From: Halocatena pleomorpha
Lineage (GTDB): Archaea; Halobacteriota; Halobacteria; Halobacteriales; Haloarculaceae
Reading direction: 5' to 3'
Length of the DNA: 64,000 bases
NCBI RefSeq assembly: GCF_003862495.1
Contig: NZ_RRCH01000028.1
Location: 186,001-250,000 of the forward strand
Under the pieces are notes generated by a model. That model had not been told where the DNA came from. It searched no databases and saw only the letters and a list, made by a program, of their open reading frames with translations. Both the position numbers and the translations under genes were made by a program. Below are positions 14,459 through 43,954 of the stretch, piece by piece (within the stretch, counting starts at the first letter, position 1; each line of letters starts with the position of its first letter).

Positions 14459-14543
14459 AGAGTCGTCCTCGACAGTGTAGTTGAGTGGCGGCCAACCGAC
14501 GTTGCCAGTGTTGCCAATAATGCCATCATTTAAGAACCACTCT

Positions 14544-14563
14544 CACTCCACTATTGCCAGTAA
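14544..14563 (-). repeat. Origin A repeat, inverted copy
   Basis: Reverse complement of the long repeat with core ACTGGCAATAGTGGAG, identical over 20 nt to the copies at 14829 and 16403. It is probably a binding site for the adjacent Orc1/Cdc6 protein. Confidence 0.7.
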
Positions 14564-14670
14564 CGAGGAAAAAATGAATAGGAGGACAGAAACGGTCACG
14601 CTTTTGGTCTGGTTATTGTATCGTGTTCTACTATTTACTATGTCTTATTGAAATATACATACATATTATA

Positions 14671-14702
14671 GATAGTTGGTATAGCTGATAGTTGATATAG
14701 CT
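14671..14702 (+). repeat. 16-bp tandem repeat in the AT-rich core of origin A
   Basis: GATAGTTGGTATAGCT at 14671-14686 is followed directly by GATAGTTGATATAGCT at 14687-14702, and a partial third unit (AGTTGAATA) follows. It lies inside the most AT-rich part of the origin. Confidence 0.6.
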
Positions 14703-14828
14703 AGTTGAATAACTATTTTGATTCTGGTATCTAGTTTTTCCCAGTACGGGTCTGGTTTCGCACGCATTGTATTAAAAGTACCGGCGTTCAGAAAAGGGGT
14801 CGACGACTTCCTCCAGTCGTTGCGGAAG

Positions 14829-14849
14829 TTTACTGGCAATAGTGGAGTG
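14829..14849 (+). repeat. Origin A repeat, direct copy 1
   Basis: A 21-nt repeat with core ACTGGCAATAGTGGAG, identical to the copy at 16403-16423 beyond the far end of the Orc1/Cdc6 gene. Confidence 0.75.
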
Positions 14850-14926
14850 TGTGTGTTTTATAAGTGGATGCAATACTGGCATAACTGGTTCGAGTGGTGA
14901 GTTAGTGGTAATACTGGAACCTATGG

Positions 14927-14934
14927 TTTTATGA
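14927..14934 (+). promoter_or_regulatory. TATA box of Orc1/Cdc6 gene A
   Basis: TTTTATGA about 28 nt upstream of the ATG at 14959, predicting a leaderless transcript. This supports the ATG over the in-frame TTG at 14947. Confidence 0.5.
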
Positions 14935-14958
14935 TGGTTCCTCGTCTTGAGTCCGCTT

Positions 14959-16215
14959 ATGGGTCGATTCAATCGAGAATCGTTCATCATTCAGGACAAA
15001 GACGTCCTCCGAGATGACTACCAGCCAGAGACACTTGAAGAGCGGGACGAGGAACTCGACGAATACGCGGCCGCGCTCCGTCCCGTCATTCAGGGCTGGC
15101 AACCGAACAACGTCTTTCTCTATGGCGTTACCGGCGTCGGGAAAACAGCTGCGACGCACGATCTTCTTGAGGAGTTGCAGGAATCCGCCGAAGAGTACGA
15201 CGACGTCGATCTCAACGTTATTGAACTCAACTGTACTGGCTGCACTACGTCCTATCAGGTGGCGGTTAATCTCGTAAACGAGATTCGCTCACCGTCTCAC
15301 CCTCTCACCACTGTATCGTCTACACGCGAACCCATGAGCGAAACCGGATATCAACAAAAACGGATCTTCAACGAACTCTACAACGACCTTGAGTCGATCG
15401 GTGGGACTATTCTCGTGGTTCTGGATGAGATCGATAACATCGGCTCGGATGATGATATTCTGTATGAGCTCCCACGAGCTCGCTCTCAACTGGATCTCGA
15501 CGTGAAAATCGGTGTGGTCGGCATCTCGAACGACTTCAAGTTCCGGGAAAACCTCTCTCCGAAAGTCAAGGACACTCTCTGCGAAGAGGAAATCTTATTT
15601 CCTCCATACGACGCGAATGAACTACAAAATATTCTCAAGCAGCGAGCCGATATCGCGCTCTACAGCGATGTCCTCGAGTTGGATGTAATCCCGTTGTGCG
15701 CAGCGTTCTCTGCACAAGACTCGGGATCTGCTCGGCAGGCGTTACGATTGCTCCGGAAAGCAGCTGATATCGCCGAGAACGATGCGATGGCCGGTGAAGA
15801 GGCGAAAATCACCGAAGAACACGTTCGGGAGGCCGAGCATCAGATCCAACGACAACAGGTCGTCGAAGGGATGCATTCGTTGACCCGGCAGGGACAGTAT
15901 GTGTTACTAACTGTCTGTCAGCTAGCGGCAGAAGGAGAAACACCCGAGCGAACGAAACTGATCTATAGGCGATATCGAGAGGTTCTTCGCACCCATAGCA
16001 GTGATCCGCTAAAACGCAGGCGGGTACACGACCACCTGTCGGATTTGAGCCTCCACGGGATCTTACGATTGGTCGACTCGTCGAGTGGACGCGGGAACTA
16101 CAACGAATACGAGCTCGATGTCTCCCTGTCGTCGGCCCTTGATGCACTTGAGAGTGAACTCGGAGAGCTTGACGAGATTCGTGAGACCGCGAAACGGCAT
16201 CGGGCTTTGGAATGA
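14959..16215 (+). CDS. orc1: Orc1/Cdc6 replication initiator A
   Basis: A 418-residue AAA+ ATPase that marks a replication origin and loads the MCM helicase. The Walker A motif is GVTGVGKT (near residue 66), Walker B is ILVVLDEIDNIG (near 160), and sensor 1 follows in GISND. The residues RQALRLLRKAADIAE near 265 carry the sensor 2 arginine region. The C-terminal 100 residues form the winged helix that binds origin DNA (QGQYVLLTVCQLAAEGETPE onward). The gene is flanked by a matching set of repeats, so it probably initiates its own replicon. It is quite unlike initiator B at 42.4 kb outside the core motifs, implying different DNA specificity. Confidence 0.92.
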   Translation: MGRFNRESFIIQDKDVLRDDYQPETLEERDEELDEYAAALRPVIQGWQPNNVFLYGVTGVGKTAATHDLLEELQESAEEYDDVDLNVIELNCTGCTTSYQVAVNLVNEIRSPSHPLTTVSSTREPMSETGYQQKRIFNELYNDLESIGGTILVVLDEIDNIGSDDDILYELPRARSQLDLDVKIGVVGISNDFKFRENLSPKVKDTLCEEEILFPPYDANELQNILKQRADIALYSDVLELDVIPLCAAFSAQDSGSARQALRLLRKAADIAENDAMAGEEAKITEEHVREAEHQIQRQQVVEGMHSLTRQGQYVLLTVCQLAAEGETPERTKLIYRRYREVLRTHSSDPLKRRRVHDHLSDLSLHGILRLVDSSSGRGNYNEYELDVSLSSALDALESELGELDEIRETAKRHRALE

Positions 16216-16232
16216 CTTAAAAACCAACAACA

Positions 16233-16322
16233 CCAGTACTGCCAATACCCTCTCCACTATTGCCAGTAAAACGCCAACCGGAAGTGCCAGTTTGTCCAGT
16301 ACCCTCTCCAGTGTTGCCAGTA
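16233..16322 (+). repeat. Paired 36-nt composite repeats downstream of Orc1/Cdc6 gene A
   Basis: Two 36-nt units start at 16233 and 16287, 54 nt apart. Both contain TACCCTCTCCA followed by TTGCCAGTA, and I count about 28 of 36 identical positions. Each unit contains two half-sites of the origin A repeat; the first includes a full inverted copy (16252-16270). The arrangement suggests cooperative initiator binding. Confidence 0.7.
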
Positions 16323-16402
16323 TTATCTAAATGAACGTTATATGATTTGAACTCCAAATACCCTTGTTGCCAATAATCCATAACACGATACCGTCCTCTG
16401 TT

Positions 16403-16423
16403 TTTACTGGCAATAGTGGAGTG
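16403..16423 (+). repeat. Origin A repeat, direct copy 2
   Basis: Identical 21-nt match to the copy at 14829-14849. Together they bracket the initiator gene and the candidate origin. Confidence 0.75.
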
Positions 16424-16950
16424 TCTGACTTAATTTCAGAAAGATTTAGTAAACGCCTTCCAGTGGCGTCTGGAGAGGTTCTCGTATGTCAACGATAACC
16501 GGTGCCAGCGTTCAGCACACTTTGGTGTGGAGTCACGCAAATCACGAAGCGATTTACTGGCTCCGAAAAATCAGAGATCTCTCCTGATTTCCAACCTCAA
16601 GTCGTGACCTCCAACCTCAAGGATCGAATTTGGGTATTTCGACGCCTCTTTAAGCATGTCAAGTACAAAGCCCCGAAACGCGGCGTCACGGCAAAGCAGG
16701 CTAGTTTCAATCCTATGTTTAGTTTCTAGGGTACTGTGACAGGGAGGTGAATACTCTGGTGACAGTCGCAGTAACGTTTCTCAATGCGCTCACAGAGGAG
16801 ATCCGACCAGAACTCTACGATGAATGTCCTAAGCGCGCACAATTAACCCTTGGTTGAAGATAGTGAAGACGCCTCGATGGAATCAATCATAGCCGATCAG
16901 CGGATAAAAGAGCTAAAAACGCACACCAAAACAACCGACGGTCAGGCCCA
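16424..16950. other. Intergenic region with degraded coding remnants
   Basis: No intact gene. A minor stretch on the plus strand near 16758-16856 reads like protein (TVAVTFLNALTEEIRPELYD) without a credible start, and the ORF at 16502-16729 has poor composition. This looks like decayed coding DNA between the origin and the sulfur module. Confidence 0.35.
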
Positions 16951-41776: not shown

Positions 41777-41976
41777 AGACGTTGGCTGTTGGTTCTGCCT
41801 TCTGGTGTGACTGAACGGAGCACGGCGCTTGTCCCCGACGATGTGGGTTATTCCTATTCTAGCGACATAGGCGACGGGGAGTTAGTGAACGAACTACAGC
41901 CACTCCGGACTCTCGGCCTCGAAGACGGTGCCGGTGTGACTTCAGTTTCTATAACAAGAGATGTGAGTGGGGGGGA

Positions 41977-42026
41977 GGGGGAGGGGGGATCAGAGTGTAA
42001 CGTTCTACAGCAGTCCCCCCTCCCCC
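41977..42026. repeat. G-rich/C-rich inverted repeat with an origin B repeat
   Basis: GGGGGAGGGGGG (41977-41988) and CCCCCCTCCCCC (42015-42026) are exact complements 26 nt apart. The left arm is part of an inverted copy of the origin B repeat (reverse complement of TTACACTCTGAT plus C-rich tail, 41983-42000). The G run extends left to 41969 and could also fold as a G-quadruplex. Confidence 0.7.
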
Positions 42027-42329
42027 GTCCAACCTCCACGTCAGCGATGGGTGACTTCCATAATATCGGCTAGAGATACACCCACACTAGAGATTTCCTA
42101 GAAAGGCAATTGCAGTGGTTCCCCTAGACATCACGTAGAGATATTCGCGTTATTATAACGTTTTCTATTAACGTTAGGTAAGTAAGTAGGGGTAATAGTA
42201 GAATAGATAGGCTAAGAATGCGTTTAACGTGGAAATTGCTTACTTACCTTTGTCTCCTAGAATCCCTGTTTAGACCCCTCTTTATGTTACTATCCATGTT
42301 CGATTTTCTCCACCCCCTCTCTCTTCTAT

Positions 42330-42351
42330 TTACACTCCGATCCCCCCTCCC
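42330..42351 (+). repeat. Origin B repeat, direct copy near the initiator gene
   Basis: TTACACTCCGAT followed by CCCCCCTCCC, matching the copies at 43681 and 43723 with one change in the first 12 bases. Confidence 0.7.
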
Positions 42352-42383
42352 ATCACTCTCTTCACTCTCTTCACTCCCATGGA

Positions 42384-42391
42384 TTTATATA
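42384..42391 (+). promoter_or_regulatory. TATA box of Orc1/Cdc6 gene B
   Basis: TTTATATA about 30 nt upstream of the ATG at 42418. It lies inside the longer frame that starts at 42379, so the shorter protein with a leaderless message is more likely. Confidence 0.55.
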
Positions 42392-42417
42392 GACACGGTG
42401 TATGGAGTCGCTTATTC

Positions 42418-43671
42418 ATGGAATCCTTCGGTGGCGAACAGGGAATTTATGAAAATGTCGACATCCTCGATCCGGAGCCGGATACGTACAAACCGACCGA
42501 ACTTCCGGAGCGAGAGGACGAACTCTCAAGGATTCACTCGGCATTGCGACCTATTACTCTTGGTGGATCACCGAGGAATATCCTCGTGTACGGTCCAACT
42601 GGACAAGGGAAGACCGTCGGGGTGAACCTCAAAACAGAGCAACTCCAGCAGTGGGCGGCGAGCGAGGATGACATCACTCTCACAGTGTTGCGCGTCAGTT
42701 GTAAGGGGGCCGGCAAATCATGGAATGTGCTTGCTGAACTCGTCAAGAAGGCGCGTGAAGTACGGTACAACAAAACCGTTGAAAAGCCACGTGGCCCAAC
42801 TAAAGTCGAACTATTCGAGATGCTCTCAGAGGATCTTCAGGTAATTGGGGGCATGGTAATTATAGTTCTTGACGAGATTGATGGAATTCAACAAGACGAC
42901 TACGTTCTCTACGAACTTCCCCGAGCCTCAATCGAGAAGGTTTCAGTAGGGGTAATCGGCATAACGAACGATTACCAGTTCCACGAAAATCTCGACGCTG
43001 ATATCCGATCCTCACTCGGAAGTCGGGAAGTCGTGTTCAGCCCCTACGACGCGAATCAGCTTCGGGACATTCTTGCTCGACGAGCCGCTCATGCTCTCCG
43101 AAACACGTATTTCGAAGACAGCATCAAGGATTCACAGCATCTTCGGAGTGAAGTCCTCACGGAGGATGTTATTCCCCTCTGTGCAGCCCTCGCTGGGCAA
43201 GATACGGGGGATGCTCGACAAGCCATTCATCTCCTGTCGACGGCGTGTGATTTGGCACTGGACGATGGACGCGAGACTGTTGAGGAGACCCACGTACGGA
43301 ACGCTCGTGAAGAGATTCAGGAGGAAACGATCGGGAAAGGAATCCGTGGTGAAACCACACAGCGGAAAATAGCGTTACTGACCGTTCTCGAAGCAGATCT
43401 GGCTGGAGAAACTCCTGAGGGGACAACACAACTCTACTGTCGGTACAAGCGGTTGACGAAGCTGATTGGAACAGATACCTACCAGCAGGGAACATTCCGA
43501 GAAAAGCTGAATGATTTAGTACATGGAAACATTCTTGAGGGTGATCGTCATGGACGTGGTCGAGGACGTGGGATGACGAATCTGTATAGTCTTGCAGTCG
43601 ATCCAACACTCGTGATCGATAAGGTTGGTGAGGATGCCCGACTGAGTGAGATCACCGAACAACTCGAATAG
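42418..43671 (+). CDS. orc1: Orc1/Cdc6 replication initiator B
   Basis: A 417-residue AAA+ initiator. Walker A is GPTGQGKT (near residue 58), Walker B is MVIIVLDEIDGIQ (near 145), sensor 1 is GITND, and the sensor 2 region is DARQAIHLLSTACDLA near 260. The C-terminal winged helix begins TQRKIALLTVLEADLAGETP. It binds origin DNA and recruits the replicative helicase. The start at 42418 is supported by the TATA box. Its flanking repeats are unrelated to those of initiator A, implying a separate specificity. Confidence 0.92.
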   Translation: MESFGGEQGIYENVDILDPEPDTYKPTELPEREDELSRIHSALRPITLGGSPRNILVYGPTGQGKTVGVNLKTEQLQQWAASEDDITLTVLRVSCKGAGKSWNVLAELVKKAREVRYNKTVEKPRGPTKVELFEMLSEDLQVIGGMVIIVLDEIDGIQQDDYVLYELPRASIEKVSVGVIGITNDYQFHENLDADIRSSLGSREVVFSPYDANQLRDILARRAAHALRNTYFEDSIKDSQHLRSEVLTEDVIPLCAALAGQDTGDARQAIHLLSTACDLALDDGRETVEETHVRNAREEIQEETIGKGIRGETTQRKIALLTVLEADLAGETPEGTTQLYCRYKRLTKLIGTDTYQQGTFREKLNDLVHGNILEGDRHGRGRGRGMTNLYSLAVDPTLVIDKVGEDARLSEITEQLE

Positions 43672-43680
43672 GATAGCTCC

Positions 43681-43750
43681 TTACACTCTGATACCCCTCC
43701 CCCGTTGCCATGCTCGTGCATGTTACACTCTGATTCCCCTCCCCCCGTTG
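43681..43750 (+). repeat. Two direct origin B repeats downstream of initiator B
   Basis: TTACACTCTGATACCCCTCC with a further CCC at 43681-43703, and TTACACTCTGATTCCCCTCC with a further CCCC at 43723-43746. Both are followed by CGTTGC. They start 42 nt apart, about four helical turns, which suits cooperative binding on one face of DNA. Confidence 0.75.
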
Positions 43751-43954
43751 CTATCGTGGCAGCACCGAGTCAGTGTATGTATCTGTCAGCTTGCGCCGTA
43801 GCGAAACACGTCTGGTCGCCGTACGTCGCGTGCTTCGGTCTTCACTAAAAGGTAAGTTACCCTCGTGACCACTTCTCCTCGTGACTACTTCTGTATCAGC
43901 ATGCAGCTTGGTCTTTCGCTCCGATGGTTGGTCTGACCGCAAATACTATTGACT

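Follow-up and report, generated by a model that had tools for sequence, protein, structure and literature searches.

The stretch of DNA analyzed here (64,000 nucleotides from Halocatena pleomorpha, hereafter the window) carries an Orc1/Cdc6 gene flanked by C-rich repeats, which raises the question of whether gene and repeats together form a replication origin and, if so, of what kind. Judged by sequence comparison, the locus is most likely a replication origin with cognate origin-recognition boxes (ORBs). The element is real and well conserved; it would belong to a known kind, the haloarchaeal Orc-adjacent origin, and its unusual traits would be strand-reversed G-strings and a recurrently inverted core. 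The features are as follows.

41969-42000, minus strand: putative left ORB, with core TTACACTCTGAT at 41989-42000 on the minus strand and a C-rich tail that is a G-string on the plus strand (41969-41988); orthologous copies known
42014-42026, plus strand: inner C-tract TCCCCCCTCCCCC, which forms an exact inverted repeat of 13 bp with the tail of the left ORB, also backed by its fold score
42027-42329, no strand: putative origin core with 42% GC (window, 53%); orientation opposite to that in loci L040-L043 and L032
42146-42189, plus strand: conserved AT-rich element CGCGTTATTATAACGTTTTCTAT...TAAGTAAG, the presumed unwinding element, from an alignment of 15 cores with orientation normalized
42280-42287, plus strand: second conserved core element CTTTATGT (consensus CTTTATAT), from the same 15-core alignment; gives the core its polarity
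42330-42352, plus strand: putative right ORB TTACACTCCGATCCCCCCTCCCA, from the repeat search; core TTACACTCCGAT has one mismatch
42353-42376, plus strand: three copies of the ORB half-site TCACTC, spaced by 9 bp, immediately 5′ of the initiator promoter
42384-42391, plus strand: TATA box TTTATATA of the initiator gene, from the sequence; conserved in orthologues
42418-43671, plus strand: Orc1/Cdc6-family initiator of 417 aa, with AAA+ domain, Cdc6 lid and C-terminal winged helix
43681-43703, plus strand: putative downstream ORB 1 TTACACTCTGATACCCCTCCCCC, from the repeat search
43723-43745, plus strand: putative downstream ORB 2 TTACACTCTGATTCCCCTCCCCC, from the repeat search

Repeats and initiator gene

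Four copies of TTACACTCYGAT followed by a C-rich tail adjoin the Orc1/Cdc6 gene, and all of them lie where the original prediction had placed them (41977-42000, inverted; 42330; 43681; 43723). The upstream pair is inverted (41979-42000 and 42330-42351, 95% complementary) and bounds an AT-rich core of ~330 bp, and the other two copies lie 3′ of the stop codon. The 12-mer alone is weak evidence (≤2 mismatches, 8 matches versus 4.1 expected); together with its tail (≤3 mismatches), it has exactly four matches in the 3.65-Mb Halocatena genome, every one at this locus, which bears out the predicted repeat family flanking the second Orc1/Cdc6 gene of the window. The reversed control of 12-mer plus tail had no match in the whole genome, and 12-mer plus tail had none in 20 Markov surrogates of the 275-kb contig. 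At 43861-43892, the window also carries CCTCGTGACCACTTCT as two tandem 16-bp copies.

The gene product matched TIGR02928 above the cutoff (E value = 4e-92) and the Pfam families Cdc6_lid and Cdc6_C. Among solved structures, A. pernix Orc1-DNA (2v1u) and S. solfataricus Orc1-1/1-3 (2qby) come closest, and the structure model (pLDDT 89) matched the fold of 2v1u. We placed the start at 42418 and rejected an in-frame ATG at 42379, which is upstream of the TATA box. The subfamily differs from paralogues encoded by this genome: the segment after Walker A, presumably the ISM region, is slightly longer, 15 residues are inserted after the ALRDT-type helix, and the wing is GRGRGRGMTN-like. A search for viral relatives found none. 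Public records (L069-L072 and L166) label this Orc subfamily merely "AAA family ATPase."

In each of the 16 loci scanned, half-sites (TCACTC or a close variant) with 9-bp spacing adjoin the initiator promoter on its upstream side: L045-L052 have two apiece, the window and L040 three, and L041-L044, L070, and L032 four. The exact triple TCACTC...TCACTC...TCACTC occurs once in the window, at 42353. The position of this array (42353-42376), which the original prediction did not include, suggests autoregulation of the initiator. ORBs downstream of the gene were detected in 7 of the 16 loci (the window, L040, L041, L042, L043, L046, and L070), a count in which the L052 sequence ends at that point and the threshold may miss others.

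A comparative search beside orthologues, as had been proposed with the original prediction, found the repeats retained in Halocatena, Natrinema, Halarchaeum, Halorhabdus, and Halorussus; orthologues keep both the gene and the repeats, and this conservation supports the predicted candidate Orc1/Cdc6-adjacent origin. Orthologues at 54 to 96% protein identity have the same layout, with two inverted ORBs ~285 to 360 bp apart, in order and class genome draws that overlap, so that orthologue counts are not independent. The ORB core is TTACACTCYGAT in Halocatena, Halarchaeum, and Natrinema, TTACACTCTCAT in Halorhabdus and neighbors, CTACACTCTAAT in Halorussus, and TTACACTGGAAT in L066. Named plasmids carry orthologues in Halocatena, Natrinema, Halorhabdus, and Halorussus. 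The flanks beyond the module are not shared between the window and the same-genus genome compared, Halocatena salina (NZ_CP096021.1), despite 96% identical initiators. In the plasmid modules of H. salina, Natrinema gelatinilyticum, and Halorhabdus tiamatea (L069, L070, and L072), a second orc1/cdc6 gene lies upstream on the opposite strand; the window has an aldo/keto-reductase-like gene there.

The genome has ~16 Orc1/Cdc6 genes (L001-L017; two of the 17 matches are fragments of a single gene on C60). Of the 14 other upstream regions that were examined, 10 have their own strong inverted repeat, and these repeats mostly differ in sequence. One of these genes (L002, 42% identical) lies within the window at 14520-16430, with copies of CACTCCACTATTGCCAGTAA in both orientations around it and an upstream stretch without a G-string. 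Another, the L010-type protein, is 89 to 93% identical across several haloarchaeal families (L093-L101 versus L010), a similarity that suggests a recent spread of the replicon or module.

Strand of the G-string

Binding by archaeal Orc1 is polar. A G/C tract of ~10 to 20 nt lies at the outer end of each ORB, on the strand opposite to that of other Orc families. In this subfamily, all 14 loci in which an inverted pair could be detected had core and then C-string (one further locus, L063, yielded no pair), and none of these 14 classifiable loci had the canonical order of core and then G-string, read 5′ to 3′ outward from the unwinding region. The other Orc families, several in the same genome included, mostly used the usual strand, with core and then G-string outward from the AT-rich core, and in the L005 and L010 families, loci with a tract were mostly canonical; the survey behind these statements was crude, with one best-inverted-repeat call per locus, many other-family loci unclassified, and two "outerG" calls in other families judged spurious. 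The L066 core TTACACTGGAATC agrees by eye with a single published ORB sequence, TAACAGCGGAAAC, at 9 of 13 positions and in the same direction, and it thus appears to be the tail, not the core, that is strand-swapped.

Haloarchaeal ORBs carry a G-string (PMC3528665, PMC3936714), which according to work cited in PMC3936714 is contacted by the Orc1 AAA+ domain, and the C-rich tail found here is this known halophile G-string on the other strand. The original prediction had treated C-rich iterons as unfamiliar for the group; since halophile ORBs carry a G-string, that view has to be narrowed to the strand, which is reversed in this subfamily relative to other Orc families. Such a G-string, opposite relative to both the ORB core and the unwinding region, goes beyond the textbook origin, as do the repeatedly inverted core and the half-site array at the initiator promoter. 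In the main text of the papers searched on haloarchaeal origins, we found no statement of a reversed G-string or of a varying core orientation.

Orientation of the core

The core is symmetric in its ORBs and asymmetric in sequence. After orientation was normalized, a TTATTATA..TTTCTAT-like element was common to 15 cores and CTTTATAT was present in most; the lowest-GC 100 bp of the region begins at 42150. The core of the window matched that of H. salina on the minus strand only (76% over 392 bp), with promoter and gene on the plus strand, and the H. salina spacer between the second and third ORBs (~82 bp) is absent from the window. The simplest history would be an inversion between the left and the inner right ORB plus a deletion between two direct ORBs, and the right ORB at 42330-42352 would be the junction of both events, the former left ORB fused to the promoter-proximal one.

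This inversion, which was not part of the original prediction, has counterparts: core inversions were found in three pairs, namely, the window and H. salina, two Natrinema loci, and two Halorhabdus loci. For the three closest pairs of opposite orientation, core identity was 0.75 inverted versus 0.51 direct for the window and L040, 0.72 versus 0.56 for the Natrinema pair L070 and L032 (both flanks collinear at 0.81), and 0.79 versus 0.55 for L045 and L046, with shuffled cores at ~0.50 to 0.52. Pairwise scoring of 16 cores against shuffles gave one orientation class with L040-L043, L046, L049, L050, and L032 and a second with the window, L045, L047, L048, L051, L052, and L070; L044, whose core aligns poorly, stands outside both, and there was one near-tie (L045 and L032). 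To fit the gene tree, whose deep branches are weakly supported, orientation must have changed at least five times among the 15 loci. Since complete plasmid records contain both orientations (H. salina and H. tiamatea versus N. gelatinilyticum), draft assembly is no explanation.

In the control L010-type orc family, no core inversion was found in 113 collinear pairs, a comparison that is indicative only, since control families differ in upstream conservation and some members have no detectable inverted repeats. General flipping of haloarchaeal origins was considered and rejected: it was not seen in L010-, L007-, or L005-type orc families, where the few minus-strand matches were explained by short length, by a position beyond the core or, in one pair, by repeated ORBs. 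Within the same Orc subfamily, the Halorubrum-type branch likewise showed no core flipping, and its two upstream ORBs read as direct repeats.

We propose that the core was inverted several times in evolution, most simply via recombination between the inverted ORBs, which would leave the ORB layout unchanged. It is possible, if doubtful, that this origin subfamily goes further and has made its unwinding core an invertible cassette between the initiator's own sites, one that switches relative to the initiator gene, together with strand-reversed G-strings and a modified Orc1 to read them (longer ISM region, 15-aa insertion, and GRGRGRGMTN wing). That the core is actively switched in living populations, as a flip-flop origin with functional consequence instead of a rare neutral by-product of inverted repeats, would fit the number of orientation changes and their absence from the 113 L010-type pairs, some members of which have inverted ORBs; we consider this addition to the main reading unlikely.

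A candidate initiator-plus-origin module

The locus is very probably the initiator-plus-origin module of a haloarchaeal (Halocatena) replicon. As in the orc/cdc6-adjacent haloarchaeal origins of Wu et al. (2012, PMC3528665), the intergenic region adjoins an orc/cdc6 gene (AAA+ plus winged helix, >300 aa) and has inverted ORB-like repeats with a G-string and an AT-rich region between them; family-specific ORB sequences, ORBs that in some cases flank the gene on either side, and mobile initiator-origin modules are shared as well. The difference from those origins is twofold: the strand of the G-string is reversed with respect to ORB core and unwinding region, and core orientation differs between close relatives. 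In the module we propose, the Orc1/Cdc6 product of 42418-43671 would bind both inverted ORBs (41969-42000 and 42330-42352), with the winged helix reading TTACACTCYGAT and the AAA+ domain reading the neighboring G/C tract, and the bound initiator would melt the AT-rich core between them and then load MCM. At the half-sites by the TATA box, the initiator would repress its own expression. The pair of ORBs past the stop codon may titrate it, a role also proposed for an ORB-rich region 3′ of Haloarcula hispanica oriC2. In that system (oriC2-cdc6E, PMC3936714), the ORBs likewise lie directly 3′ of the initiator gene and were shown to restrain firing, probably by titration; here, in contrast, there are just two putative ORBs.

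It is improbable that the repeats are operator or titration sites only, at a dormant or defunct origin where this Orc1/Cdc6 protein no longer initiates and the replicon depends on another orc gene instead. Among related origins, dormant ones beside orc genes are on record for Haloferax mediterranei (PMC4595724), and the genome (a 61-contig draft) has other orc genes to offer, three besides this one among the four on the 275-kb contig and ~16 in all. Nor is there a GC-skew extremum at the locus (228-230 kb; minimum at 275.5 kb and maximum at 115.5 kb on the 275-kb contig), a result that is in itself uninformative. Against dormancy, however, several genera retain two inverted ORBs around a conserved AT-rich core, with the core element conserved in either orientation, whereas plain operators would not need a core.

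The exact G/C inverted repeat predicted around the leftmost copy is present, at 13 bp instead of 12 (arms 41977-41989 and 42014-42026), and its hairpin folds better than shuffles (z = −3.3). Related G/C tracts lie directly inside one ORB in L040, L041, and L051. The run beside the left copy that had been called prone to form a G-quadruplex does fit the strict pattern (41969-41988), yet its supposed importance found no support: the strict motif is present in 2 of 16 loci, so the potential is not conserved, and a G-quadruplex as main element, or a G-quadruplex-dependent origin, was rejected. Haloarcula hispanica oriC1 (PMC3936714) is similar in its inverted ORBs, long G/C strings, and G-rich repeat inside the ORB (GGGGAGGGGG type), which is reported to be an enhancer; it differs in ORB core, initiator family, and strand polarity, and the window has, instead of a G-rich arm inside both inverted ORBs, a single inner arm (42014-42026, none at the right ORB) that pairs with the ORB's own tail. 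Despite the hairpin, the strict pattern, and the oriC1 enhancer, it is thus very unlikely that the left G/C-rich structure is the functional element (a fork barrier or structure-based origin signal) with the iterons secondary, since the exact hairpin was not seen in L040 or L042, the ORBs are always retained, and the G tract is simply the ORB tail.

If the reading of the locus as an origin with reversed G-strings and an inverting core is true, this subfamily would be a natural test of which features of an archaeal origin need a given orientation for helicase loading: the polarity of the ORBs, that of the core, or neither.
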